A stretch of DNA of 64,000 nucleotides from positions 62,001 through 126,000 of the forward strand of contig NZ_JAEVLS010000006.1 of assembly GCF_016801985.1 (NCBI RefSeq), given 5' to 3'. Origin of the DNA: Steroidobacter gossypii (GTDB taxonomy: Bacteria > Pseudomonadota > Gammaproteobacteria > Steroidobacterales > Steroidobacteraceae). A program made the position numbers and the translations under genes. Under the pieces are notes generated by a model. It did no database searches. It saw only the letters and a list, made by a program, of their open reading frames with translations, and was not told the origin of the DNA. Of this stretch, positions 4,292 to 27,528 are shown one piece after another; position 1 is the stretch's first letter; every line of letters begins with the position of its first letter.

Positions 4292-4663
4292 ATGAACCGC
4301 AAGACTTACCCGATGTTCCTCGGTATCGCTACGACGCTGTTGCCGGCGGTGGCGCCGGTACTCGCCGATAAACAGCCGACTCCATGCGCTGTGAGCGCCA
4401 CTTCCGCACCAAAGGAGCAAACGATGGCAACGCATTCGTATGTCGGGATGTGGGTCACCGACGACGGGCACATCCGCCACGAGCTGTTACCCAACGGCCG
4501 CTACGACGAAGCGCGCGGCCAGCGGCAAAGCGCCTATCAGGGCCGGTATGAGATTACCGGAACGCACATCGAGTACTGGGACGATACCGGCTTCACCGCC
4601 GACGGCGACTTCGTCGATGAGAACACTCTGCACCACGCGGGGATGATATTCCGACGTCGCTGA
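4292..4663 (+). CDS. Atu4866-family small exported protein
   Basis: About 123 residues. The N-terminus has a signal-peptide-like segment (FLGIATTLLPAVAPVLA). The C-terminal 75 residues match the Atu4866 family: YVGMWVTDDGHIRHELLPNG, RYDEARGQRQSAYQGRYEI, DDTGFTADGDF and a final GMIFRRR. This is a small beta-barrel fold of unknown function that is often found beside aldo/keto reductases or SDRs, as here. An ATG at 4280 overlaps the previous stop, but GGAG at 4282-4285 is six bases before the ATG at 4292, which I take as the start. Family copies without the signal would start near 4424. Confidence 0.82.
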   Translation: MNRKTYPMFLGIATTLLPAVAPVLADKQPTPCAVSATSAPKEQTMATHSYVGMWVTDDGHIRHELLPNGRYDEARGQRQSAYQGRYEITGTHIEYWDDTGFTADGDFVDENTLHHAGMIFRRR

Positions 4664-4772
4664 GTCGGCACGGAAGGTGCGCCGCGCAGCGTAGCGGCGC
4701 TCCTGGTGGTGGAGGAACCATTGACGTGGACAGGGGTTGAGGAGGAAAGCACCAACAACGGGAGAGAATTCC

Positions 4773-5828
4773 TTGGAGACCGCGCTTGCCATCACCGGCT
4801 GGATCATGATCGCCGCCACGGTGCTGCCGTTGTCGCGATCGGCTGCCTGGTGGGTGCGCATCTTCGACTTCCCACGGCTGCAGATCACGCTGTGCTTCAT
4901 CGTCGTTTTTGCGATGTATCTGCTGGTGCGGGAGGACCCGGGCGCGGTCGACAACGTTTTCCTCGGCCTGCTGGGACTGTGCCTGGCCTACCAGCTCTGG
5001 CGAATGTACCCGTACACGCCGCTGGCGCGTGTGCAGGTGGAGTGGAGTTCGAGGCATCGGCCCGAGGCGTTGTTGGGCATCTTCATCTCCAACGTGTTCA
5101 TGGACAACCGTCGCGCCGAATTGCTCCGGAAGCGCATCGTCGAGAACGATCCGGACATCATCCTGGTCGTGGAAACCGACCAGTGGTGGGAGCAGGCGCT
5201 GCAGGACCTGGAAGCCAGCCATCCGCATGTCGTCAAGTGCGTGCTGAACAATACATACGGAATGATGTTGTTCAGCCGATTCGAGTTGCTCGGCGCCGAG
5301 GTTCGGTTCCTGATCGAGGACGACGTGCCGTCGATCGCCACCCAGGTGAAGCTGCCCTCAGGGGATGCGATTCAGCTCAGGTGCGTGCATCCGCGACCGC
5401 CTGCGCCGCAGGAGAACGAGCGCAGCACCGAGCGCGACGCCGAGTTGCTCGTCGTCGCCAAAGAGTTGCGCGGGCGCGACGAGCCCGCCATCGTCGTCGG
5501 CGATCTCAATGATGTTGCCTGGTCTCGGACCAACCATCTTTTTCAAAAGATCAGCGGCCTGCTGGATCCCCGGATCGGTCGAGGCTTCTTCAGCACGTTC
5601 AACGCGAACTGGCCGCTGCTGCGCTTTCCGCTCGACCACGTCTTCTGCTCGAAGCACTTTCGCGTCCGCGACTTCAAAGTGCTTAGTAAATGCGGCTCGG
5701 ATCACTTCCCGGTGTTCGCCCGGTTGAGTCTGGAACCCGACGCGACTGCTGCGACCGAGGAGCCCACGCCATCGCCTGACGACGAAGCAGAAGCGCGCGA
5801 GAAGATCGAGGATGCGCGCGAAGACTGA
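4773..5828 (+). CDS. Membrane-anchored endonuclease/exonuclease/phosphatase-fold protein
   Basis: About 351 residues. Two to three N-terminal membrane helices (ALAITGWIMIAATVLPLS, ITLCFIVVFAMYLLV, VFLGLLGLCLAYQLW) precede an EEP domain. The domain shows NDPDIILVVETDQWW with the metal-binding Glu, NTYGMMLFSRF, the core VVGDLNDVAWS (Asp and Asn), FPLDHVF and the closing GSDHFPVFARL with the catalytic Asp-His pair. Such proteins cleave phosphodiester or phosphate-ester bonds outside the inner membrane; the substrate is unknown. The start is TTG 4773, chosen because GGAGAG lies eight bases upstream; a TTG at 4737 is less convincing. The C-terminus is acidic and low-complexity. Confidence 0.88.
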   Translation: METALAITGWIMIAATVLPLSRSAAWWVRIFDFPRLQITLCFIVVFAMYLLVREDPGAVDNVFLGLLGLCLAYQLWRMYPYTPLARVQVEWSSRHRPEALLGIFISNVFMDNRRAELLRKRIVENDPDIILVVETDQWWEQALQDLEASHPHVVKCVLNNTYGMMLFSRFELLGAEVRFLIEDDVPSIATQVKLPSGDAIQLRCVHPRPPAPQENERSTERDAELLVVAKELRGRDEPAIVVGDLNDVAWSRTNHLFQKISGLLDPRIGRGFFSTFNANWPLLRFPLDHVFCSKHFRVRDFKVLSKCGSDHFPVFARLSLEPDATAATEEPTPSPDDEAEAREKIEDARED

Positions 5829-5845
5829 CTGACGCGGACGCCGAG

Positions 5846-6955
5846 CTAGCGATACAGCGCCAGGAATCTGGTGCGGAAGTCTTTCTCCAACACCATCGGG
5901 ATGCCGCCCTCCCAATCGTCGTTGCCTTCGATGATGGTGGGGCCGTCCGGCGTGATCGCCACGTCCCAGCCGATCGAATGGATGTCTCGCAAGTAGCCAT
6001 GCAATCGGGACACCAGCTCGATGGCCTCGAAGAAATACGGGATCTTGAAGCCTTGAAACTCGATGCCGCTATCCGGGTGGCGCCAGGCACGGCCGCCGTA
6101 GCCCGGTTTGTAAAAGCCTTCGCCGCGCAATTCACCACGTTGCGGATCGATGCTGATGATCAAGCCGCCCGCCGCCCAGTTGTCGACGCTTTTGCCGTGA
6201 GTGCCGACTCGGAGCGCGGCGGCAAACAGTTCGACGCTCGTGGCCGTCGCGAATGTGATGAGTCGAACGGTATTGACCGAGCTCGGATGGAGCGCGCGCA
6301 TCGTGTCGTGTTGAATGATTCTTTGCTGTAGCAGGTAGCGATCGGTGAGGCGCTCGGCGAGCTCCGGCACCGTGATCTTGTCGTGACCGACATGGAGCGA
6401 GCCGCCCTCGATGCGCAATGGGAAGGCGCCGTCGCCCTGTATGCCGCCGAGCTTCTTGCAAAAGCCGTCGAGCGTGACATCCGGCCGCTCGACGATGGCG
6501 GCGAGCGGCACTGACTGATTCGTGTCCAGCCATGTCACCTGGCTCGCATCCAGCAGCGCCAGACTGCGCGGCGTCGCCAATCCCAGGCTGCCGACGAACT
6601 GCGAGAAAACAAACTTGTCCCGGAGCAAGCAAACATAGTTGAACGGCGCCCGCCCGGTGCGGAAGTTGCGGCGGTTGCGAATGCGACGGAAGCGTCGGTA
6701 GGGCAGCAGTTCGCGAGTGCGATCGACAGACTTACGGTCCAGGCCGTAAACATAGTAGTAGCCATTGATCTCGCCACTGCGCAGCAGCCACCACAGCAAC
6801 TCAGCCAGCACCCGCGGTTTGCTCTTGGTCGGCTCGTCCGGATAGTAGGACCGGGACAGTTGGCGATCCGTCACCAGCCCCCAGATTTTTCTGACGAGCT
6901 TGGCGGGCCCGTGCTGGGCGCTGCGCATACGACGAGTCATGATCGAGGCATTCAT
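5846..6955 (-). CDS. Sugar-transferase-associated ATP-grasp protein
   Basis: About 369 residues. The central and C-terminal part matches the ATP-grasp family linked to sugar transfer and hexapeptide transferases: LPYRRFRRIRNRRNF, APFNYVCLLRDKFVFSQF, YLLQQRIIQHDTMRALHPSS, VNTVRLITF and DVAITPDGPTIIEGNDDWEG, whose Glu and Asn are expected Mg-ATP ligands. Such enzymes ligate a carboxylate to an amine or similar group, probably in surface-polysaccharide decoration. ATG 6955 is preferred over the GTG at 6970 because GGGGAG ends six bases upstream. It converges on the EEP-domain gene with 17 bases between stops. No glycosyltransferase genes adjoin it. Confidence 0.85.
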   Translation of the reverse strand: MNASIMTRRMRSAQHGPAKLVRKIWGLVTDRQLSRSYYPDEPTKSKPRVLAELLWWLLRSGEINGYYYVYGLDRKSVDRTRELLPYRRFRRIRNRRNFRTGRAPFNYVCLLRDKFVFSQFVGSLGLATPRSLALLDASQVTWLDTNQSVPLAAIVERPDVTLDGFCKKLGGIQGDGAFPLRIEGGSLHVGHDKITVPELAERLTDRYLLQQRIIQHDTMRALHPSSVNTVRLITFATATSVELFAAALRVGTHGKSVDNWAAGGLIISIDPQRGELRGEGFYKPGYGGRAWRHPDSGIEFQGFKIPYFFEAIELVSRLHGYLRDIHSIGWDVAITPDGPTIIEGNDDWEGGIPMVLEKDFRTRFLALYR

Positions 6956-7215
6956 CGCCGGCTCCCCCACAGTCCGAGCATGGTCCTTATGGCTCTAGCC
7001 GGCGCGACATTGCTGGTCGCGCCCGTACATACAATATAGCGGCGCGCCACAGAATGCTCCTTCGGATTTGACCCGACAGACGGCTGCTCGATCCGATGCT
7101 GCGGCGCGCATAACGGCGCGGGCGGAAAAGGCAAATCGTCCTTTAGCCCCTTGCGCGAGCCGTGATGGCCCGGCGACATTGCGCGGCCGAGTATTCGCCA
7201 GTGATCGCTCCAGGC

Positions 7216-7776
7216 ATGCCTGAGTTTTTCGAACACGAGTCTCCTCGCCTGCGCTTGATGGCCTGGCAGGAGCGACACATCGCCCCGTTCATCGCCATGA
7301 ACTGCGATCCGGAGGTGATGCGGTATTTCCCATCGCTCATCGATGAGCAGCAGTCGCGCGCCAGCATCGATTTTTGGATGAGCCAGTTCAGCGAGCGCGG
7401 CTGGAGCAACTGGGCGGTGGAATTGAAGCAGACCGGCGAGTTCATTGGCTTCGTGGGTCTGTGGACGCCAAGGCTGACCATGCCGTTTTCACCTTGTGTC
7501 GAAATCGGCTGGCGGCTGGCTCGTCGCTTCTGGGGACAAGGCTACGCAACCGAGGGAGCCGAGGCGTCGCTGCGGGCCGGATTCGAACAATTGGGGTTGA
7601 CTGAAGTCGTCTCCTACACCGCATTGTCGAACAAACCATCGCGCGCGGTCATGGAGCGCATCGGCATGCGCAACACCGGCGAGGACTTCGACCATCCTGC
7701 CGTACCGCTGGACAGTCCGTTGCGCAGACACTGCCTGTACCAGATCACCCGGGAAGCCTGGGTCCAGGGGCGCTGA
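7216..7776 (+). CDS. GNAT N-acetyltransferase, RimJ/RimL type
   Basis: 186 residues from ATG 7216. The GNAT fold is complete: ESPRLRLMAWQERHIAPF at the start, PEVMRYFPSL, FIGFVGLW, EIGWRLARRFWGQGYATEGA (acetyl-CoA pyrophosphate loop) and TALSNKPSRAVMERIGM, the region that binds the coenzyme adenine end. This subgroup acetylates small amines or the N-termini of proteins. The reading frame is open back to GTG 7162, but the family usually begins just before the SPRLRL strand; neither start has a strong ribosome site. It is followed 35 bases later by a Nudix gene on the same strand. Confidence 0.88.
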   Translation: MPEFFEHESPRLRLMAWQERHIAPFIAMNCDPEVMRYFPSLIDEQQSRASIDFWMSQFSERGWSNWAVELKQTGEFIGFVGLWTPRLTMPFSPCVEIGWRLARRFWGQGYATEGAEASLRAGFEQLGLTEVVSYTALSNKPSRAVMERIGMRNTGEDFDHPAVPLDSPLRRHCLYQITREAWVQGR

Positions 7777-7811
7777 GTCGCCGTATTCCTTTTTTATCGA
7801 GTGTCAGTTTC

Positions 7812-8402
7812 ATGAGTGTTGCTAATCGCGTTCGGGTAGAAGATGTCGTCACGTTGTCTGATGATTGGTATGTCCTGAAGAAGACGCGGTTCTCGTTTCT
7901 GCGTTCCGACGGCACCTGGCAAACGCAATCTCGAGAGACCTACGACCGAGGGGACGGGGCGACCATCCTGCTCTACGATGTGACCCGCCGCACCGTGGTG
8001 CTGGTGAGGCAGTTTCGCTACCCGGCGTTCGTGAACGGACACGACGATTTGCTGATCGAGGCGCCCGCGGGCCTGCTCGACGAGCGCGATCCTGCAAAAG
8101 CGATCCGGGATGAGGTTCAGGAGGAGACGGGCTTTCACGTGGGCGACGTTCAGCGGATATTCGACGCCTTCATGAGTCCGGGCTCGGTCACCGAACGCTT
8201 GCATTTTTTCGTGGCGCCCTATCGATCGGACGACCGTCGCTCGGATGGCGGTGGGGCGGTGGAAGAAGGCGAGGATATCGAAGTGCTGGAGCCGACCATC
8301 GAAACGGCGCTGGCCTGGATCGCCGAAGGCCGGGTTCGCGACGGCAAGACCATCATGCTGCTACAGTACGCCGCGCTCAATATTTTCGGTAACCGGAAGT
8401 GA
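7812..8402 (+). CDS. Nudix hydrolase, NudK/ADP-ribose pyrophosphatase type
   Basis: 196 residues. The Nudix helix-loop-helix is PAGLLDERDPAKAIRDEVQE followed by ETGF, with the metal-binding REVQEE-like cluster intact (one Glu of the loose consensus is Asp). RQFRYPAFVNG and FMSPGSVTERLHFFVAPY are typical of enzymes that split sugar-nucleotide diphosphates such as GDP-mannose or ADP-ribose. Cytoplasmic housecleaning or recycling role is inferred from the family. The ATG at 7812 has no strong ribosome site. The stop overlaps the next start by 4 bases (8399-8402), so translation of the two is coupled. Confidence 0.92.
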   Translation: MSVANRVRVEDVVTLSDDWYVLKKTRFSFLRSDGTWQTQSRETYDRGDGATILLYDVTRRTVVLVRQFRYPAFVNGHDDLLIEAPAGLLDERDPAKAIRDEVQEETGFHVGDVQRIFDAFMSPGSVTERLHFFVAPYRSDDRRSDGGGAVEEGEDIEVLEPTIETALAWIAEGRVRDGKTIMLLQYAALNIFGNRK

Positions 8403-18853: not shown

Positions 18854-19513
18854 CTATTCGATGCGCGCGCTGGGTCGGGCCGAGCGGGTCGATGCGTCTG
18901 CTGCTGCTGAAGCCTCGAGCTGTTCCCGGGCGAGGCGAAGCCAGAACGTCAGAGGAGGGCACTGCATGTCAGGAAGCTTCCCGGCGTCATCGAGTTGCCG
19001 CAATTGGATGATGTCTGCAAGGTTGGGTCGTCGTCGGTATGCAGCCGACTCAGCGGCTGTCATGGGGCCGCCTTGTTGCGCGAGTGTGACGCGACTTGCA
19101 TGCGACAGCCTTTCTGCATATCCCTTGCTGACGGCGCAAAGATAGCGCTTCGCGCGTACGTGCTCCCGAATGACTTCCACGATCCTGGCGGAGAACCCGT
19201 GCTGCTCCAGAAAATCGGCGCCGAGGTCGCTGTGCCTCGAGTAGCCATAGGCATCGACCGCGTCCAGAGCCTTGTCGCGGGCGATGAAGTGCCCGATGTC
19301 GTGCAGGAACGCGGCGAGAGCGAGCTCCTCGTCGAGTCCTCGCTCAAGCGCCAGGGTCCCGCATTGCTGTGCGTGCTGAAGTTGCGTGCAGTCTTCGCCG
19401 TAGGTCTCGTGACCGTACGTCGTGAACATTGACTCGATCCGCGCGATGACGTTGGTGATGCTGGTCGTCTGGCTCATTGGTCTATACCACATGGAGCGCG
19501 GAGCATACTGCAT
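18854..19513 (-). CDS. phnZ: PhnZ-like HD-domain diiron oxygenase, phosphonate degradation
   Basis: 219 residues. HD-domain ligands fall at His47 (QLQHAQQ), His71-Asp72 (FLHDIGH), His94 (RHSDLGADF), His118 (REHVRAKRYL) and Asp175 (QLDDAGK). The separations (24, 22, 24 and 57) nearly match those I recall for PhnZ. The block KRYLCAVSKGYAERLSHAS with LAQQGGPMTAAE is characteristic of HD proteins associated with phosphonate operons. PhnZ cleaves the C-P bond of 2-amino-1-hydroxyethylphosphonate to glycine and phosphate, using the PhnY product. ATG 19513 has AGGA five bases upstream; the family length fits ATG 19477 better, but that start directly abuts an operator-like site. Ala/Ser-rich tail. 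Confidence 0.82.
   Translation of the reverse strand: MQYAPRSMWYRPMSQTTSITNVIARIESMFTTYGHETYGEDCTQLQHAQQCGTLALERGLDEELALAAFLHDIGHFIARDKALDAVDAYGYSRHSDLGADFLEQHGFSARIVEVIREHVRAKRYLCAVSKGYAERLSHASRVTLAQQGGPMTAAESAAYRRRPNLADIIQLRQLDDAGKLPDMQCPPLTFWLRLAREQLEASAAADASTRSARPSARIE
19478..19489. promoter_or_regulatory. GntR/UTRA operator-like site 1
   Basis: TGGTCTATACCA, an almost perfect 12-bp palindrome of the HutC/DasR/PhnR type recognised by GntR regulators with UTRA domains. It lies at the 5' end of the PhnZ-like gene: inside codons if translation starts at 19513, immediately before the start if at 19477. Binding by the GntR protein at 21850-22581 is inferred. Confidence 0.6.
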
Positions 19514-19570
19514 CCGGTTCCTGATCCAAAGGCGAACCTGATTGCAGCCGGCATCGCGTCTGTCGCGTGA

Positions 19571-19586
19571 AGTGGTCTAGTCCAGT
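19571..19586. promoter_or_regulatory. GntR/UTRA operator-like site 2
   Basis: AGTGGTCTAGTCCAGT matches the site at 22671-22686 in 15 of 16 positions. It lies between the divergent PhnZ-like and MFS genes, 58 and 66 bases from their starts, where it could control both promoters. Confidence 0.7.
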
Positions 19587-19651
19587 CATGGAACTGCCAC
19601 ATTGGGTGCGTAAGGTGCTGGAATACCCTCCATCCAGAGTGCCTCGCCACC

Positions 19652-20953
19652 ATGAGCCGCCCTCAGCGACTCTCCCAGCTGCGCTTGCTCGGTTTCACTC
19701 TGTACGCGACCTCGGCCGCGTTTCTCACCTATTTCTCGATGTACGCCTTTCGCAAGACGTTCGCGGTGGCGAGTTTCGAGCACGTCGATGGCTGGTGGCA
19801 CGATGTGGACTTCAAGACGGCGATCGTCATCGCGCAGGTCATCGGCTACGCTCTTTCCAAGTTCATAGGCATCAAGGTCATCTCCGAGATGGCGCACGCA
19901 CGAAGAGCGGCCGCCATCGTGGCGCTGGTGATGTGCTCGCAGGTTGCGCTGGTCCTGTTTGCCGTCATGCCGGCGAGCTGGAAACCCGTTGCGCTGTTCT
20001 TGAACGGCCTGCCGCTCGGGATGATCTGGGGGCTGGTCTTCAGCTTTCTCGAAGGGCGTCGGGTTTCGGAGGTGCTCGGCGCCGGGTTGAGCGTCAGTTT
20101 CGTACTGTCATCCGGGGTGGTCAAGAGCGTCGGAAAATGGTTGGTCATCGAAAGAGGCGTGAGCGAGCTGTGGATGCCGGCCGTGACGGGCTTCCTGTTC
20201 ACGCCGCTGCTGCTGCTCGGTGTGTACCTGCTTTCGAAGGTTCCAGCGCCCTCTGCAGCGGACCGGCGAGAGCGCAACGAGCGAGTGCCGATGACTGCAG
20301 ACGATCGCAAGCGGTTTTTCCTGCGCTACATGCCTGGTCTCGTGGCGCTGATCCTGGTCTATATGCTGCTCACCGGGATGCGAGATTTCAGCGACAACTT
20401 CTCCGCGGAAATCTGGGCCGGTCTCGGTTTCGGCGATACGCCCAGCGTATTTTCCACGACGGCGCTGTGGACATCGATTCTCGTGTTGATTCCGCTCGCA
20501 ATGGTGATGTTCGTGAGGGACAACCTGCGGGCCCTGTTGACCAATCACGCCCTCGTTCTGTTCGGGATCGTGGTTCTCGGTTTCAGCACCCTGATGTTCG
20601 AGCATGACTATCTCGGCAGCGAAACCTGGATGATCCTGCATTCGACAGGCATCTATCTGGCCTACATACCATTCAACTGCCTGCTGTTCGATCGCATGAT
20701 CGCTGCCGTGAACGACAAGGCGAATGCAGGGTTCCTCATCTATCTGGCCGACTCCATGGGATATGCGGGGAGCGTCGGCATTTTGCTCTACAAGCAGTTC
20801 CTCGATGTCGAGCTCAGCTGGGTCCGTTTCATGATCCAGAGCTCATGGTTGCTCAGCATCCTTGGCGTGCTGCTGGTTGCATATTCGGCGTGGTACTTCC
20901 AGCAGCACTTGTCGTCTCGAGCCGGGCGGCGGGAACTCCCAGTCGCCTCGTGA
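19652..20953 (+). CDS. MFS transporter, DUF5690-like, probable phosphonate carrier
   Basis: 433 residues, 12 predicted membrane helices. The start RLLGFTLYATSAAFLTYFSM, then YAFRKTFAVASFE and KTAIVIAQVIGYALSKFIGI, resembles the DUF5690 group of major-facilitator proteins. Other marks are GLPLGMIWGLVFSFLEGRR in helix 4 and YIPFNCLLFDRMIAAV in the second half. Substrate is not established for the group. Position inside the regulon, divergent from the PhnZ-like gene and sharing operator site 2, suggests inner-membrane uptake of the phosphonate or export of a by-product. The ATG at 19652 lacks a strong ribosome site. It converges on the dioxygenase gene with 24 bases between stops. Confidence 0.85.
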   Translation: MSRPQRLSQLRLLGFTLYATSAAFLTYFSMYAFRKTFAVASFEHVDGWWHDVDFKTAIVIAQVIGYALSKFIGIKVISEMAHARRAAAIVALVMCSQVALVLFAVMPASWKPVALFLNGLPLGMIWGLVFSFLEGRRVSEVLGAGLSVSFVLSSGVVKSVGKWLVIERGVSELWMPAVTGFLFTPLLLLGVYLLSKVPAPSAADRRERNERVPMTADDRKRFFLRYMPGLVALILVYMLLTGMRDFSDNFSAEIWAGLGFGDTPSVFSTTALWTSILVLIPLAMVMFVRDNLRALLTNHALVLFGIVVLGFSTLMFEHDYLGSETWMILHSTGIYLAYIPFNCLLFDRMIAAVNDKANAGFLIYLADSMGYAGSVGILLYKQFLDVELSWVRFMIQSSWLLSILGVLLVAYSAWYFQQHLSSRAGRRELPVAS

Positions 20954-20977
20954 GAATGGCTCCGAGGGCAGCGCGGC

Positions 20978-21853
20978 TCAGCGCGCTGCCGTGCTGTGAG
21001 AAGTCGGAGTGGCGATATGGAATCGCGGGTTGCCGAAATCGGCGCGCTTGCTCCTGTAGTACTCCTCGTAGTGATCTCCGGCCGGCGCGAGATTGAAGGT
21101 AAAAAAGAATGCCCGGCGCGTGCGTTTCGACCGGTTGGTGTCTGAGCGATGAGGAACGTATGAGTTGAACAGCAGAACATCGCCTGGCTCGGCGCACACG
21201 GTTTTCCACGTGAGCTGCTCCTCGAGTTCGGCAAGGATGCGTCCGTTGCTGGCGCCGCCCTGGTAGATGGGAAAGATGGGAAACCTGCCAAGCTCGGTAT
21301 CGCGCCACTGCAGGAGCGGCGAATGCAGCTCCAGGTAGTTCGATGAGAACTGCAGGGCGCCGTTCTCCGGTGTGGCAGGATCGACGAACAAGGCTGCGGT
21401 CACGTGCAAAGTCGGGCCGAAATCCACGTAGGCGAGGATGTCCTGGTGTGCGGTGAACGCTCCGCCGCCGGGACTCTTCATGTTGCATTTGTCTTTAAGC
21501 AGCGAGAACCGCCGGTGGGTGATCGCTTCCAGACGCGCCTGACATGTGGGAATGATGCTGTCTCGAAACAGCGCAGAGCTTCCCTTGATGTACTCGTACC
21601 GGCAGGTTTGCAGCGGGTTGCCAGACTCGGCAACGGCGATGAACCTCTCGCCGCTTCGCTGGTAATACTCGGCGTAGGAGCAGGCCTGGTCGCGGATGCT
21701 GCGTAAGATATTCGTAGCGCGCTGTGCGAGAGCGTTGGTTTCCGCATCAAGTTGCGCCAGGTCGCTGCCTTGGATCGCTCCCGGAAGGTGGCAATAGCCC
21801 GCAGACAGCAATTGATCTGCTTCATTCATGGACGAGCGCTCATCGGTGCTCAT
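20978..21853 (-). CDS. PhyH-family 2-oxoglutarate dioxygenase, PhnY-like
   Basis: 291 residues. A phytanoyl-CoA-dioxygenase (PhyH) double-stranded beta-helix with iron ligands His136 and Asp138 (TAHQDILAY), His235 (YVPHRSDTN) and the 2-oxoglutarate-binding Arg247 region (RSKRTRRAFFFTF). PhnY-type members hydroxylate the alpha carbon of 2-aminoethylphosphonate, making the substrate of PhnZ. Pairing with the HD protein at 18854-19513 supports that role; other PhyH substrates cannot be excluded. ATG 21853 overlaps the stop of the GntR gene (ATGA), so the two are translationally coupled. The frame stays open upstream through the regulator but has no coding sense there. Confidence 0.85.
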   Translation of the reverse strand: MSTDERSSMNEADQLLSAGYCHLPGAIQGSDLAQLDAETNALAQRATNILRSIRDQACSYAEYYQRSGERFIAVAESGNPLQTCRYEYIKGSSALFRDSIIPTCQARLEAITHRRFSLLKDKCNMKSPGGGAFTAHQDILAYVDFGPTLHVTAALFVDPATPENGALQFSSNYLELHSPLLQWRDTELGRFPIFPIYQGGASNGRILAELEEQLTWKTVCAEPGDVLLFNSYVPHRSDTNRSKRTRRAFFFTFNLAPAGDHYEEYYRSKRADFGNPRFHIATPTSHSTAAR

Positions 21854-22581
21854 TCGCCTGAGATGCTCGTTGTGAGCGCGATGTTGAGCACGTCGTGACG
21901 CCAATACTCCTGATCGAACTCGACTACCTGGCCGTGCGAATCGCGGGCGGTGCGAGTGAGCAGCAGGCCTGGCGTGCCGGAAGCCACCCAGAGCGCATCT
22001 GCTTGCGGGCCGAGGAGCGCGGTGGAGGTGAGGACGATCCGTGAGCGGTGCGTGCGCACACCGTAGCGCTGCGCGAGCACTTCGCTCAACGAGCCGTCCA
22101 GGTCGGCCTTCAACAAACCCGGGTAGCGTTGCGCGATCAAGAAGATGTCCTCGATCAGAACCGGGCGTTCGTCGATGCAGCGTCGGCGCTGCAGGCGGAA
22201 CACCGCTGTACCCACGCGAACGCCGAGATGGCTGGCGAGCCAGGGGCTTGCTTGCAACTTCTCCTTGAGCAGCGTTTCGGTTTTGGGGGTGCGCCCCTGT
22301 CGGCTCACGTTGCGCATGAACCCTGCATCTTCCACGGGATCGTAGTCGAGGCGCCGGGCGGCGACGAACCAGCCGCGGCGATTCATTCGATACACGAGGC
22401 CTTCGGTTTCGAGCTGCTGGAGTGCTTCGCGAACGGTGACCCGCGTCATGCCACATTCCTCGCTCAGCTCGCGCTCCGAGGCGAGCTGGCTGCCCGGCTG
22501 CAGATCTCCTGTTTCGATCCGTCGCGCCAGAATGTCTCGCAGGGAAGGGCGCCGCGCGCGATTCGCATCCTTCTTTTGCAT
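21850..22581 (-). CDS. GntR-family repressor with UTRA domain
   Basis: 243 residues. N-terminal winged helix-turn-helix (residues about 10-80: RDILARRIETGDLQPGSQLA, SERELSEECGMTRVTVREAL, QQLETEGLVYRMNRRGWFVA). The UTRA ligand domain follows (VFRLQRRRCIDERPVLIEDI, LTSTALLGPQADALWVASG, LLLTRTARDSHGQVVEFDQE, YWRHD). This is the HutC/PhnF/PhnR type. ATG 22581 has GGAG six bases upstream. It is divergent from the TonB receptor gene and coupled to the PhyH gene. Operator-like site 3 lies 90 bases upstream. Likely represses the whole locus until a phosphonate-related ligand binds the UTRA domain. Confidence 0.92.
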   Translation of the reverse strand: MQKKDANRARRPSLRDILARRIETGDLQPGSQLASERELSEECGMTRVTVREALQQLETEGLVYRMNRRGWFVAARRLDYDPVEDAGFMRNVSRQGRTPKTETLLKEKLQASPWLASHLGVRVGTAVFRLQRRRCIDERPVLIEDIFLIAQRYPGLLKADLDGSLSEVLAQRYGVRTHRSRIVLTSTALLGPQADALWVASGTPGLLLTRTARDSHGQVVEFDQEYWRHDVLNIALTTSISGE

Positions 22582-22670
22582 TCGGTTCTCCGAAAGGGTG
22601 GACGCCCATTGTAACGAGATGACCCGGTCCGTAGCACCAGGGCGGCGACAGACGCACCCGGCTTGAGAAA

Positions 22671-22686
22671 ACTGGTCTAGTCCAGT
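22671..22686. promoter_or_regulatory. GntR/UTRA operator-like site 3
   Basis: ACTGGTCTAGTCCAGT, arms ACTGG/CCAGT around TCTAGT, in the divergent region between the GntR gene and the TonB receptor. A plausible -35 (TTGAGA, 22663-22668) on the plus strand overlaps its left side, and an AT-rich TTAATAC follows at 22686-22692, so binding would block the receptor promoter. Confidence 0.7.
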
Positions 22687-22759
22687 TAATACGGGTGTCA
22701 CAGAACTTGGCTTCAATGCGCGTCCTCGACCGCATTCCTTTGCATACTCGGAGCTCGCC

Positions 22760-25693
22760 ATGCAGCCCTCGGTTCTTTGCTACGCCGTCTCGACCTCGCT
22801 TGCATTTGCCGCACTCGGCTTGGTACCCGCCCAGCGCGCGCTGGGGCAGGACACGACGCTCCCAGCCGCCGAAACGGCCGAGCAGGGTCGTTCTGCGGCG
22901 GCGAATCTCCCTTCAGGTCCGATCGACGAAATCGTCGTGTACGGTGCGGGGGTGCAGCAGGAGCGCGCCATCGATCGCAAGCGCGAGAACAAGCAGATTT
23001 CGGATGTGATTGGCAGCGACGCGCTCGGCAAGCTGCCCGAGAGCAATGTCGCTGAGTCCGCGGCGCGCCTGCCGGGCTTGAACGTGATTCGCGATCAGCA
23101 GACGGGCGAGGGCGCATATCTGTCGATTCGCGGTCTGGATGCGACGCTCAACAGTTACAGCATCAATGGAGTGCGCATGGGCCAGTCCGGGAGCAACCGC
23201 GCGATGCGCATGCAGGTGCTGCCGCCCGATGGCGTGAAATCGATCGAGGTGAGCAAGACCCTGACACCGGACATGGACGGCGATGCGCTCGGCGGCGCAG
23301 TCAACATCGAACTGCCGAACGCCTTCGACTATGACGGTGCACACATGAGCACATCGGTTGATGGCGCGTATCACGAGCGCTCGGGGCGCCACGGCAATAC
23401 GGTCTCGGTCGCAGCGTCGAATCTGTTCGGCGACAACCTCGGTGTGTATGTTGGTGCGTACTACGGCTCGCGCAAATCAGTTGCGGAAGAGACCGAAAAC
23501 GAAGGCGACTGGATGCCGTACCTGTGGGTGCCGGATGGCAACGAGTACATCGACTCGAAGTCCTACATGATGCAGGGCCTGGGACTCGACCTGTTCGAGA
23601 ACGAGCTCGAGCGCTACGGCGCGAACGTCTCCATCGATCTCAAGTATGGCGACGACAACTCATTCCACGTTCGCGGCCAGCACAACCGCTATCGGGATGA
23701 GGAGACGCACAACTACTTCGACGTTCGCACGCATAGCTCGGCGAGGCTGGTTCAGACCGACCCCAATCGCACCGATCTCGCCAACCCCCTCAGCATGGTG
23801 ATCGGGCAGGATGCCACGCTCGGTCGCATCTACGGATTCACGACGGCAGACATCGTCGATGCCGACGGCGACGGCCGCATCACCGACGCAGACCGCACGG
23901 GCAATGGCTTCTACAGCATGATCGGTCGCTCCGGCACCTGGGATCCAGAAGGTGTGCGGCTCGGGCGCGGCGTGGAGTACGGTGTCGAGGAGGAGACGCA
24001 GAGCACCTTCTCGATCGGGGGCGAGAACAGGTTCGGTGCCTGGTTGGTCGACTACGATGTCGCATACGCACGCGCCGAATCGGAAATTCCTGAAATTTAC
24101 GGCCTCGACGCCGGGTTCAGGCAGTCAACCCCGTGGCTCGGCAACCGCGGCATCCCCTTCAGCTTCCCCGATCCGCGCTATCCGCAATGGCAATTCAATC
24201 AGGCGGGTTTCGCGGGCCTGTACGATCTGTCGAACTACCCGATCGGCGGCGCCTGGGCGGAGAGCGAGCAATCGGAGAACGAGCAGCAGACGGTACAGTT
24301 CAACGTGACGCGTGCCTTCGACGCAGGCGCGTTCCAATCAGTGAAGTTTGGCGGGAAGTACACAACGTCGGAACGCGACTCGCGCTCGGGCACGCTCGCC
24401 TCGTTGGATGCGATCGACGGATTGACGCTTGCGCAGAGCGGCCTCGCCGGCCGCAATTACAGCGAGTTCTTCGATGGCGAGTACAGCGGTGGGCATGGCT
24501 TCGGCAACGTGCTGTCCGCACGCGGCGTCGTCAATGCGATTCGCAGTTGTGACGCCTCGATCTTCGTGAACGATAACGGTACCTGCGGCTTCGACGCGCA
24601 GGCGATCAGCTCGGATTCGCGCGTTCAATTGGAGGAGGACGTCACGGCCGCGTATCTGATGGGCACGTGGCGCTTCGGAGATGTGGAAGTGATCGGTGGC
24701 GTGCGCGCCGAGCGCACGGAGCTACAGAGCACGACGTATCGCCAGGTCGATCTGCCACAGGATGCGCTCGCCGCGCTACCGCCCGGACAGCTTCCGAACA
24801 ATGGCTACGTCTCGCAAACGCACTCGTACAACAACGTGCTGCCGAGCCTGCATCTGAGCTGGTTTGCCAACGACAACACGATTGTGCGCGGTGCGGTGTG
24901 GACCAGCTTCACGCGGCCGGAATACAGCTATATCGCGGGCGGCGAGCAGTTCGGTTACGAAGTGCTGCGCGATGCTGGCGGCAATGTGACCGGTGTGCGC
25001 CTTGCCTCGGTCAATCGCAGTAACCTGAAGCTCGATCCGCAGCGTGCGCTCAACTTCGATCTCAGCTACGAGTACTACCTGAACGACAAGGATGGCATGC
25101 TCTCGGCGGCGCTCTATCACAAGCGCATCAAAGATTTCCTGGTCGTGGATGCGAGCCTCGAGCGCGACGTAACCGATGACCAGGGTGTGCAGATCAGCGA
25201 GCCGAAGAATCTCGACAGCGCCGAGCTTACCGGCCTGGAGCTAGGCTACACGCAGCGTTTCCGCTTCCTTCCCGAACCCTTCGATGGGCTTGGCCTGGTC
25301 GCGAATATCACGCTCCAGGACAGCGAAGGCGATGCTGCGGCTGCCTGGCGCACCGATCGACCCTCGTTCGTCAACGCGCCGGATCGCATGTGGAACGTGA
25401 TCGGCTTCTACGAGAAGGCCGGCTGGGAGACGCGACTGTCGATTCAACACACGGGAGAGTACATCGAAGATCCGCGCGGCAACGGCGTCGACAAATACAT
25501 CCAGCCGACGACATTCGTGGATTTCTCGCTGAGCAAACTGTTCGCTCAACAGAAGGTGCGCATGTTCGTCGAGGTCACGAACCTGACTGAGGAGCATCTA
25601 TATTGGGCGACGCGCGGTCGGGCCGAGGCATTCCAGAAGGATTACGTAGAAGCGGGCCGTACGTACAACGTCGGCTTCAACTGGGTGTTTTGA
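22760..25693 (+). CDS. TonB-dependent outer-membrane receptor
   Basis: 977 residues. Signal peptide (STSLAFAALGLVPAQRALG), TonB box around residues 54-61 (PIDEIVVYG), plug domain (ISDVIGSDALGKLPESNVAE, AARLPGLNVIRDQQTGEGAY, LSIRGLDATLNSYSINGVRM), then a long 22-strand barrel ending in RTYNVGFNWVF with the C-terminal Phe of outer-membrane barrels. The plug type (LGKLPESNVAESAARLPG) is common in large Caulobacter/Xanthomonas-like receptors for organic substrates rather than siderophores. Context suggests a phosphonate or phosphorus-containing polymer or lipid. A secreted phosphoesterase-like gene begins 3 bases after the stop, and the operator upstream links both to the GntR repressor. Confidence 0.95.
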   Translation: MQPSVLCYAVSTSLAFAALGLVPAQRALGQDTTLPAAETAEQGRSAAANLPSGPIDEIVVYGAGVQQERAIDRKRENKQISDVIGSDALGKLPESNVAESAARLPGLNVIRDQQTGEGAYLSIRGLDATLNSYSINGVRMGQSGSNRAMRMQVLPPDGVKSIEVSKTLTPDMDGDALGGAVNIELPNAFDYDGAHMSTSVDGAYHERSGRHGNTVSVAASNLFGDNLGVYVGAYYGSRKSVAEETENEGDWMPYLWVPDGNEYIDSKSYMMQGLGLDLFENELERYGANVSIDLKYGDDNSFHVRGQHNRYRDEETHNYFDVRTHSSARLVQTDPNRTDLANPLSMVIGQDATLGRIYGFTTADIVDADGDGRITDADRTGNGFYSMIGRSGTWDPEGVRLGRGVEYGVEEETQSTFSIGGENRFGAWLVDYDVAYARAESEIPEIYGLDAGFRQSTPWLGNRGIPFSFPDPRYPQWQFNQAGFAGLYDLSNYPIGGAWAESEQSENEQQTVQFNVTRAFDAGAFQSVKFGGKYTTSERDSRSGTLASLDAIDGLTLAQSGLAGRNYSEFFDGEYSGGHGFGNVLSARGVVNAIRSCDASIFVNDNGTCGFDAQAISSDSRVQLEEDVTAAYLMGTWRFGDVEVIGGVRAERTELQSTTYRQVDLPQDALAALPPGQLPNNGYVSQTHSYNNVLPSLHLSWFANDNTIVRGAVWTSFTRPEYSYIAGGEQFGYEVLRDAGGNVTGVRLASVNRSNLKLDPQRALNFDLSYEYYLNDKDGMLSAALYHKRIKDFLVVDASLERDVTDDQGVQISEPKNLDSAELTGLELGYTQRFRFLPEPFDGLGLVANITLQDSEGDAAAAWRTDRPSFVNAPDRMWNVIGFYEKAGWETRLSIQHTGEYIEDPRGNGVDKYIQPTTFVDFSLSKLFAQQKVRMFVEVTNLTEEHLYWATRGRAEAFQKDYVEAGRTYNVGFNWVF

Positions 25694-25695
25694 AC

Positions 25696-27528
25696 GTGAG
25701 AATCGCGATTGTGACGAGCGCTCTGGTGCTGCTGTCGGCGGCGTTGCCGCCGACAGCGAACGCCAGCAAAGTCGCAGAGTGGCAGTTCCCGCCGGACTAC
25801 AGCTTGCCGATTCCGCGTGAGCGGAAGAGTGAGCAAGCGCCCTCGATCTCTGCGCCCGCCTGGCGGGCGCCGCGCCTCGCAGGCGAAGAGGCGACCGAAA
25901 CTCGTGAAGACCTGCTGCAAGGAGCAGCGGCGCCGAGCAATGGTTTCAGCATAGAGCTATGGCTGCTCGACCACGTCAATCGTCCGGTCGGGACGATGCT
26001 GGTCGCGCAACACGAGGGGCAAATTTCGTGGACGTTCGGCTATCGCGACGGCGCGCTGTTCTTCGGGCCGGCCGGCGAGCCGACCGCGGTGGGCGCACGG
26101 CCAACGATCGCACGTAAACGCGATGATGACCTCGAAGGCTACAAGGAAAGATGGCATCACTTGGTCGGCAGTTACGACGGAGCACGCTGGCGGCTCTACC
26201 ACAACGGAATATTGCTCGAGGAGCAGCAGGCGCCGCTTCCCTCGTGGACGCGGCTGGATCTTGCCGCATACACGCACGCCGAGCCGTACATGCAACTGGG
26301 CGACCTGGTGCAAAGTGTCGTCCTGCACGACACCGCGCTGACGCCGGAACGCGTCACTGCGGCTTTTGCAGAACGGACGCGGCTGCTCAATGAAGGCCGC
26401 CGCGACGCCGAATTTCACTTTACCGCTGGGCCCTATCTGAATACGCCTGATCCGGGCGAGATGTGGCTGGTGTGGGAAACCGATACGGCGGCAGGCGCGC
26501 TACTCGAATGGGGCGAGCGCGTTCCGTACGAATACAAGCTCGAGATCACTGCGCGCAACCGACTGCATAAACAGCGCTTGAAGGGGCTGAAACCCGATAC
26601 GCCGTACTTCTACCGTGTGACGGCGATCGGCGAGAACGGGAAGCGCATCGACTCCGGGCCGCTCACCTTCCGCACGCTGCCGCTTGCCGGCCAGCCGCTC
26701 GTGTTCGCAGTCGGTGGTGATACCGAGGCGCGACCGTTCATCAATGCACATATTGCCCGTGGCGTGTGGGAAGCCCGTCCGCATGTATTGCTCATGACGG
26801 GCGATCTCACCGACGGTGGCACGGCGGAGCATCGCTGGCAATGGACGCATGAGTACTTCCCTGGCATGACGCCGCTCACGAGCCGAGTGCCAATGCTCGC
26901 CGCGGCGGGCAACGGCGAGGGGGATCTCATCTGGTTCAATCATTACCACGATGTGCCGGGCACGAGCGGGTACTACAGTCGCCGTGTCGGTGACGTCGAA
27001 TTCTTCGTGCTCAACAGCAACCTAGTACAGCAGGAGCGCCGTGAGCCAGGCTTCCGTGCGCGCCAGCGGGCCTGGCTCGAGGCTAGCCTGAAACAATCGC
27101 GGGCCCGCTGGAAGGTCGCGCTTCACCATCATCCAACGTACAGCTCCGACGACGACGATTACGGCAATACATATGTCGAGCCTTCCGATCTCGGCGATGA
27201 GGAAGTGAAACGCGACTTCCTCGCGCTGTACGAGCGTCACGGCGTGGATATGGTGTTCTACAGCCATCTCCACAGCTACGAGCGAACCTGGCCGCTGGCC
27301 AACGGCAAGATCGATCCGGGAGGGGTGGTGCACGTGCAGGTGGGCGGCTTCGGCGGCAATCATGAGCGCAGCGGTCCAACGCATGCATGGCTCGACCACA
27401 CCGTGTTCAGCGGCTATCACTACGGCATTGTCCGCGTGTTCGGCGATACGCTAGAAATGAGCGTCTATGACGCGGAGCATAGGCTGCGTGACAACTTCAG
27501 CCTGCGACCACGAAGCGCGCGCCGGTGA
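25696..27528 (+). CDS. Secreted LamG-FN3-metallophosphoesterase protein with altered active site
   Basis: 610 residues from GTG 25696. Signal peptide (ALVLLSAALPPTANA). Residues about 75-220 form a LamG/concanavalin-like domain (SNGFSIELWLLDHVNRPVG, EGQISWTFGYRDGALFF). Residues about 235-330 form the fibronectin-like domain of purple acid phosphatases (MWLVWETDTAAGALLEWGE, LKGLKPDTPYFYRVTA). The metallophosphoesterase domain follows: Asp342 (GGDTEAR), Asp370 (GDLTDGG), Asn406 (AGNGEGD), ALHHHPTYS and His524/His526 (YSHLHSYER). The His expected after Asn406 is Gly, and Gly of GHxH is Ser, so catalysis may be modified. Likely releases phosphate from an organophosphorus substrate in the periplasm or at the surface. 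Confidence 0.85.
   Translation: MRIAIVTSALVLLSAALPPTANASKVAEWQFPPDYSLPIPRERKSEQAPSISAPAWRAPRLAGEEATETREDLLQGAAAPSNGFSIELWLLDHVNRPVGTMLVAQHEGQISWTFGYRDGALFFGPAGEPTAVGARPTIARKRDDDLEGYKERWHHLVGSYDGARWRLYHNGILLEEQQAPLPSWTRLDLAAYTHAEPYMQLGDLVQSVVLHDTALTPERVTAAFAERTRLLNEGRRDAEFHFTAGPYLNTPDPGEMWLVWETDTAAGALLEWGERVPYEYKLEITARNRLHKQRLKGLKPDTPYFYRVTAIGENGKRIDSGPLTFRTLPLAGQPLVFAVGGDTEARPFINAHIARGVWEARPHVLLMTGDLTDGGTAEHRWQWTHEYFPGMTPLTSRVPMLAAAGNGEGDLIWFNHYHDVPGTSGYYSRRVGDVEFFVLNSNLVQQERREPGFRARQRAWLEASLKQSRARWKVALHHHPTYSSDDDDYGNTYVEPSDLGDEEVKRDFLALYERHGVDMVFYSHLHSYERTWPLANGKIDPGGVVHVQVGGFGGNHERSGPTHAWLDHTVFSGYHYGIVRVFGDTLEMSVYDAEHRLRDNFSLRPRSARR

Follow-up and report, generated by a model that had tools for sequence, protein, structure and literature searches.

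Oxidative cleavage of the carbon-phosphorus (C-P) bond by a PhyH-type hydroxylase paired with an HD-domain oxygenase has been described in the PhnY*/PhnZ pathway for 2-aminoethylphosphonate (AEP), in a methylphosphonate version from Gimesia maris and in TmpA/TmpB, a two-gene operon (PMC10574752). Other clusters combine PhnW and PhnX with Pbf enzymes dependent on flavin adenine dinucleotide (FAD) (PMC8154272, PMC10590968); PhnR provides GntR/UTRA-type regulation, and AepP of Pseudomonas putida is an AEP permease of the major-facilitator superfamily (MFS), related to organophosphate:phosphate antiporters and 27.75% identical to GlpT (Murphy et al. 2021, PMC8316502). All of these are already known. 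In the present work we analysed a 64-kb stretch of the Steroidobacter gossypii contig NZ_JAEVLS010000006.1 (hereafter, the window), where six adjacent genes, apparently controlled by a common switch, have the makings of a system for phosphonate use, as judged from the genes alone. The cluster spans positions 18854-27528 and comprises genes for an HD-domain protein (minus strand), an MFS permease of the DUF5690 family (plus), a PhyH dioxygenase and a GntR/UTRA regulator (both minus) and, divergently, a TonB-dependent receptor and a phosphoesterase (both plus). All six lie at the positions assigned to them in a first-pass annotation of the window.

We consider it likely that the cluster constitutes a substrate-induced regulon for feeding on an esterified aminophosphonate. 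Its PhyH and HD proteins are of the same types, with the same active-site positions, as those of the described pairs. To the two genes of the TmpA/TmpB operon (PMC10574752) the locus adds the receptor, the phosphoesterase and the DUF5690 permease. Unlike the PhnW-PhnX clusters, it has the oxidative pair alone, with no PhnW, PhnX or FAD enzyme of that sort; in most sister loci, genes of this latter kind stand beside DUF5690, often with a GntR gene, an HD gene and operators like those of the window. Regulation is presumably of the PhnR/PhnF kind, the regulator family being the same and the operator palindromic and similar to TGGTnTAnACCA; here, the regulon would include TonB receptors and exported phosphoesterases. 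The first-pass annotation had stated that described loci use ATP-binding cassette (ABC) importers, which is wrong as a rule, AepP being a GlpT-related MFS permease (PMC8316502). A form of the oxidative pair next to phosphonate ABC importer genes is seen in locus L195 (genome G1255), where genes for a phosphonate-binding protein, an ABC ATPase and a permease are followed by PhyH and HD (4350-8379). This locus offers a good comparator for the ABC-fed form; the window has receptor, phosphoesterase and DUF5690 permease instead.

DUF5690 loci in other bacteria

Comparison with related loci in other bacteria indicates that DUF5690 marks phosphonate loci and suggests that this family of unknown function imports phosphonates. 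Scanning genome contigs with the permease confirmed at least 562 relatives; the named loci are the 80 whose permeases are most similar (49 over 20 kb, 31 of 20 kb or less). A second set consisted of 16 whole-genome DUF5690 loci (297 kb), and 20 stretches of 20 kb (400 kb) from 13 genomes served as controls. The comparison covered 97 loci, 96 of them distinct (L129 is the same as L047). PhnX, PhnW or a PhnZ-like HD protein was found in 63 of the 80 named loci (41 of the 49 exceeding 20 kb) and in 10 of the 16 whole-genome loci, against none of the 20 controls. Taken gene by gene, 48 named loci have PhnX, 17 PhnW and 37 HD, while FAD oxidoreductases of the TIGR03364 and TIGR03329 types, which we take to be PbfD and PbfC respectively, occur in 36 and 15. 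A GntR protein is present in 32, a phospholipase C in 16 and a match to one of four receptor types in 42. The controls contain no PhnX, PhnW, HD, GntR or phospholipase C gene, and one of them has a TIGR03329-like protein. Representative PhnX, PhnW, TIGR03329 and TIGR03364 proteins surpass the NCBIfam cut-offs. Public annotation of a Novosphingobium plasmid record also places DUF5690 with a TIGR03364 oxidoreductase, a phosphonoacetaldehyde hydrolase and a UTRA regulator. No paper on DUF5690 (PF18943) was found in the literature searched.

The closest sister locus is that of Bowmanella pacifica (L078), a member of the same class as the host. Its genes run HD (minus), DUF5690 (plus), PhyH, HAD, ureidoglycolate-lyase-like, type I phosphodiesterase with PA14, receptor (all minus) and GntR (plus), with two operators between HD and the MFS gene and one between receptor and GntR. 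Order and orientation of the HD, MFS and PhyH genes are those of the window, at 59, 65 and 55% identity. The arrangement therefore recurs outside the host as far as the six functions are concerned; the phosphodiesterase is unrelated to the window's enzyme and the receptor is of another type, so that these two components appear to have been exchanged while the functions were retained.

Regulator and operators

The regulator gene (21850..22581, minus strand) encodes a PhnR-like protein scoring 239.8 bits against TIGR03337, short of the curated cut-off of 296.75. Near-palindromic sites (TGGTCTAKWCCA) lead the HD, permease and receptor genes. Operator 1 (TGGTCTATACCA, 19478..19489, plus strand) adjoins the HD start, operator 2 (TGGTCTAGTCCA, 19573..19584, plus) lies within the divergent HD/MFS promoter region, and operator 3 (again TGGTCTAGTCCA, 22673..22684, plus) is located 5' of the receptor gene. 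These three operator-like sites, already noticed for their similarity in the first-pass annotation, are the sole matches to TGG[TA]nTAn[AT]CCA in the window, and sites of this kind recur in sister loci. Across the 7.1-Mb host assembly (97.6% complete), TGGWCTAKWCCA has no exact match other than these three; for comparison, the pattern read backwards matches once per strand. The PhnF operator presumably resembles TGGTnTAnACCA as well, although the search did not find that operator.

Three loci (the window, L078 and L100) do not count as independent, because the pattern was chosen after their sites had been inspected. The 80 named loci together with 28 kb of the window contain 80 sites, compared to 1.8 expected and a maximum of 4 in 20 first-order Markov resamplings. 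Outside the window, 65 of the 77 sites fall in the 32 loci with a GntR homologue and 12 in the other 48; the 400 kb of control DNA contain none. When sites lying -80 to 250 bases ahead of a listed gene are scored as preceding it, this is the case for 62 of the 68 sites in the 33 GntR loci (window included). An operator leads PhnW in 14 of 14 cases, 17 of 21 receptors (two clusters and Bowmanella's), phospholipase C in 9 of 12, the MFS gene in 15 of 33, HD in 10 of 26, GntR in 9 of 33, the window-type phosphoesterase in 2 of 4 and the TIGR03364 type in 2 of 12. None precedes PhnX (0/26), the TIGR03329 type (0/13), PhyH (0/2), the type I phosphodiesterase (0/2) or LysR (0/1); PhnX and the FAD enzymes are mostly inside gene runs, where an operator of their own is not expected. 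The shared operators, recognised by comparison, point to a single regulon that the GntR/UTRA protein would repress.

The HD and PhyH proteins

The HD protein (18854..19477, minus strand; the start codon could be at 19477, 19492 or 19513) appears to belong with the phosphonate HD oxygenases. It scores 205 bits (E 6e-61) against TIGR03276 (Phn-HD) versus 37 bits against the general HD family. It does not reach the curated TIGR03276 cut-off of 214.6; among 200 genomes from the family of the host, only 7 have a match that does, while many more matches there exceed 190 bits. The closest solved chains are TmpB (6npa) and PhnZ (4n6w, 4n71, 4mlm), with E values of 5e-34 to 1e-33. When eight HD proteins including TmpB and PhnZ are aligned, residues Y26, E28, H35, H59, D60, H82, H106, K110, R160 and D163 show no variation; in PhnZ, these positions presumably bind metal and substrate. 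An unrooted tree was built from 50 HD proteins, with one PhnZ and one TmpB among them and no distant HD proteins as outgroup; two rows have very long branches. The window protein sits in a small separate clade, grouping with the Bowmanella and Thalassomonas proteins (89/83) within a set of six that adds three Pseudoalteromonas proteins (97/97), and PhnZ and TmpB are placed elsewhere in the tree. By homology, the protein would cleave an alpha-hydroxyphosphonate to phosphate. The spacing of its Tyr-Glu pair is shorter by one residue than that of PhnZ and TmpB, a trait shared with the Bowmanella, Thalassomonas, Brevundimonas and Rhodococcus proteins and perhaps a class marker.

The PhyH protein (20978..21829, minus strand) is a predicted Fe(II)/2-oxoglutarate dioxygenase (PF05721, 70.6 bits) that retains HQD and the distal PHR and RR motifs. 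The HxD...H and Arg signature, described as intact in the first-pass annotation, is so indeed: H128, D130, H227, R238 and R239 are invariant across five PhyH proteins. The profile score and the neighbouring genes suggest that the protein is PhnY*-like and alpha-hydroxylates the phosphonate. The closest relative is the Bowmanella protein (55% identity); the next is an Azospirillum fusion protein whose N-terminal part aligns at 46% and whose other part resembles an AEP transaminase. Its gene lies beside aepY, and this points to AEP-like substrates. Neither PhnX nor PhnW scores above cut-off in the host, so that the oxidative PhyH/HD pair would have to do the work. Besides the host, PhyH matches were obtained in 1 of 369 genomes (E 1e-15), 1 of 246 (E 1e-12) and 2 of 337 (E 1e-25), namely in G260 (L075), G901 (same DNA as L078), G1255 (L195) and G1385 (L194); those of G260 and G1385 have no HD match alongside. 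A pattern-based contig scan with PhyH alone returned no relative, missing even the 55% identical Bowmanella protein. The Azospirillum fusion gene lies on a plasmid of A. thermophilum (L158, 7968-9707), beside aepY and other aminotransferase genes, in what is likely a phosphonate biosynthesis cluster that may make hydroxy-AEP.

The same logic could serve a different substrate: methylphosphonate, trimethyl-AEP, hydroxy-AEP or an unknown phosphonate. Known pairs vary in substrate (PMC10574752), and the HD protein scores 147.7 bits against the TmpB model and 108 bits against the Gimesia type. This alternative nevertheless seems rather doubtful. The Azospirillum fusion, found in the closest PhyH relative outside Bowmanella, argues against it, as do the AEP enzymes PhnW and PhnX of the sister loci. 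For the methylphosphonate version in particular, the PhyH protein reaches 99 bits against NF052437, a model restricted to that version (cut-off 500), compared to 257.8 bits for a Rhodococcus PhyH encoded next to an HD gene (L159).

Permease, receptor and phosphoesterase

The permease (19652..20953, plus strand) matches PF18943 (DUF5690) with 522 bits, far over the gathering score of 25. A sequence search returned no solved chain at E<=1. The structure, predicted with a predicted local distance difference test (pLDDT) score of 90, retrieves G6PT/SLC37A4 first in Foldseek (E 1e-8), with GlpT at rank 32, suggesting the fold of organophosphate:phosphate antiporters. Residue R34, invariant in 33 sequences, aligns with R45 of GlpT, in a low-probability alignment; a second arginine, R244, is matched by its place in helix 7 only. 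The protein may be a phosphonate carrier and possibly a phosphonate:phosphate exchanger. When AEP serves as its nitrogen source, a marine bacterium exports phosphate (PMC8316502), an observation that would be in keeping with antiport. Equating DUF5690 with AepP, likewise an MFS carrier, was considered and then abandoned, as the sequences gave no clear sign of kinship with GlpT. With the DUF5690 profile barely finding GlpT (hhalign probability 4%), this looks like a family other than AepP, as set apart through GlpT and not through AepP itself.

The receptor (22760..25693, plus strand; TIGR01782, 554 bits) aligns at 489-634 bits and 33-40% identity over its length with receptors of six DUF5690 loci (L100, L102, L131, L133, L135 and L144), as against at most 190 bits, in the same program, with eight host receptor regions picked from the best matches. 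Elsewhere near DUF5690, receptors of the TBDR48 type are paired with a large TPR-sulfotransferase protein (L045, L046, L048, L049, L050, L051, L074, L114, L139, L141, L148, L155), in several loci with no phosphonate gene nearby.

The phosphoesterase gene (25696..27528, plus strand) probably starts with a GTG at 25696, two bases past the receptor stop codon, and the two genes should therefore be co-transcribed. The product combines LamG, FN3-like (purple-acid-phosphatase-N-like) and metallophosphoesterase domains (Pfam). Its N-terminus, judged by eye, resembles a signal peptide, and the protein is probably exported. The nearest solved proteins by sequence are purple acid phosphatases (6gja, E 9e-14). 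Foldseek also ranks purple acid phosphatases first and retrieves PhoD as well, with generic jelly-roll matches for the LamG part; the model being weak (mean pLDDT 64.5), these fold matches are not leaned on. Proteins of this type, 42-47% identical, recur in L100 and L144, beside HD, and in L102, directly after the receptor as in the window. A search of 327 genomes from a different class within the phylum, a set without a positive control, gave none at E<=1e-60. Phospholipase C genes adjoin HD in L133 and L135, and 13 of 17 phospholipase C frames have a twin-arginine-like start (by eye). At least one of the three unrelated exported phosphoesterase types is found in 27 of the 80 named loci, counting weak phosphodiesterase matches (66-78 bits) in L102, L128 and L134. 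The occurrence of three unrelated types in such loci makes an esterified phosphonate more likely as the substrate, and the window enzyme may be a phosphonate-ester hydrolase. The proposal that receptor and exported phosphoesterase are members of the system is supported by the sister loci and the operators. In one DUF5690 locus (L126, 14801-19057) there are two phospholipase C genes, with operators ahead of them.

A simpler diet is conceivable, in which free AEP or another small phosphonate is taken up, and receptor and phosphoesterase provide general phosphate-ester scavenging or widen the diet, with no larger ester involved. Bacteria are known to feed on free AEP and have dedicated carriers for it (PMC8316502), none of the three exported phosphoesterase types occurs in 53 of the 80 named loci, and TonB receptors are common in such genomes. 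We regard this account as unlikely. Porins should let small phosphonates through, and one would not expect a TonB receptor to share the operator if nothing larger were taken up. Moreover, operators often lead the receptor and phospholipase C genes, and the two-base interval between receptor and phosphoesterase genes also counts against it.

Proposed pathway

Use of an esterified aminophosphonate could proceed as follows. The GntR/UTRA protein would repress at the TGGTCTAKWCCA operators until an inducer is present. The receptor would capture a phosphonate-bearing ester, such as a phosphonolipid headgroup, a phosphonoglycan or a fragment thereof, which the purple-acid-phosphatase-like protein, or the unrelated phosphoesterases standing in for it in sister loci, would hydrolyse in the periplasm or outside, freeing AEP or a close relative. 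The DUF5690 permease would import the aminophosphonate, perhaps swapping it for internally made phosphate. PhyH, by homology to PhnY*, would then hydroxylate the alpha carbon, and HD, by homology to PhnZ, would split the C-P bond with O2, yielding phosphate and, from AEP, glycine. In most sister loci hydrolytic enzymes, PhnX together with PhnW or FAD-dependent oxidoreductases, would take the place of the two oxidative steps or accompany them. Comparison with other loci agrees with the first-pass proposal of phosphonate catabolism by a PhnY*/PhnZ-type pair with an MFS carrier in one regulon, and the idea that the phosphonate is fed by a receptor, trimmed from an ester and imported by an MFS permease gains support. 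The more specific first-pass suggestion, a phosphonolipid, polysaccharide or polymer trimmed outside the cell, is one candidate version of it. That PhyH and HD act on non-phosphonates and the genes are merely adjacent is highly improbable: both families are large, with many substrates, and the scores lie under curated cut-offs, but HD, MFS and PhyH keep order, orientation and 59, 65 and 55% identity in Bowmanella, and operators tie together HD, MFS and receptor.

Several observations weigh against the pathway as drawn. HD, PhyH and the regulator all fall under the curated cut-offs of their models. PhyH is rare, Bowmanella being its sole carrier among the 80 named loci (tblastn with the window protein, E<=1e-5), and the exact gene set with the window-type phosphoesterase was found only in the window. 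The Bowmanella receptor, at 87 bits for the best piece and 169 summed, is no closer than the host's own receptors, so that even the nearest sister locus does not keep the same receptor. TonB receptors are common, with a match in 3 of the 20 controls, and those of cluster TBDRc are never operator-led (0/7). PhnX, PhnW and HD are all missing from 17 of the 80 named loci, 8 of which are over 20 kb, and these loci, chosen from at least 562 by permease similarity, are related and not independent. None of the 16 whole-genome loci has a GntR gene, and their 297 kb contain one operator-like site. Finally, the controls were drawn from the whole-genome set and not from the named genomes, with L168 overlapping L046 by about 2 kb.

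On a broader view, which we put forward tentatively and hold to be somewhat less probable than its contrary, DUF5690 loci would represent a widespread, unrecognised system of Proteobacteria and Bacteroidota for the utilisation of phosphonolipids and phosphonoglycans. Such a system would often be a PhnR-type regulon, with a dedicated TonB receptor, an interchangeable exported phosphoesterase (of phospholipase C, purple-acid-phosphatase or type I phosphodiesterase type) freeing aminophosphonates from biomass, a DUF5690 antiporter swapping them for phosphate, and an interchangeable oxidative or hydrolytic C-P-cleaving module. Lipids and glycans presumably account for much of the C-P in living matter, and to our knowledge its recovery from biomass by bacteria has been little described. 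The locus and its sisters suggest an answer open to testing, with a candidate function for DUF5690, TonB receptors as candidates for phosphonate-ester uptake, and exported lipases and phosphatases as candidates for acting on phosphonolipids. If correct, this would be a TonB-dependent form of phosphonate nutrition, of which no description was found in the literature searched. As far as that literature goes, the link between DUF5690 and phosphonates, the presence of TonB receptors and exported phosphoesterases within a phosphonate regulon, and the exchange of oxidative and hydrolytic cleavage within one architecture are new. The simple operator TGGTnTAnACCA provides a handle for finding further members.

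Other features

A recent transfer of the locus is conceivable, none of the nine genus members listed having DUF5690, but its G+C content (0.616) matches that of the rest of the window (0.615). In the Bacteroidota, DUF5690 is present on one Bacteroides and one Phocaeicola record, and a Parabacteroides distasonis record (L163, 4267-7550) carries, according to its public annotation, a DUF5690-phnX-phnW run. A plasmid of Hymenobacter sp. NBH84 (L164, 1-16492) has, in a row, genes for PhoX, a Na/Pi symporter, an MFS carrier, a phosphonate HD oxygenase, SusC/SusD, sulfatase-like and alkaline-phosphatase-family proteins; this looks like a SusCD-type phosphonate utilisation locus.

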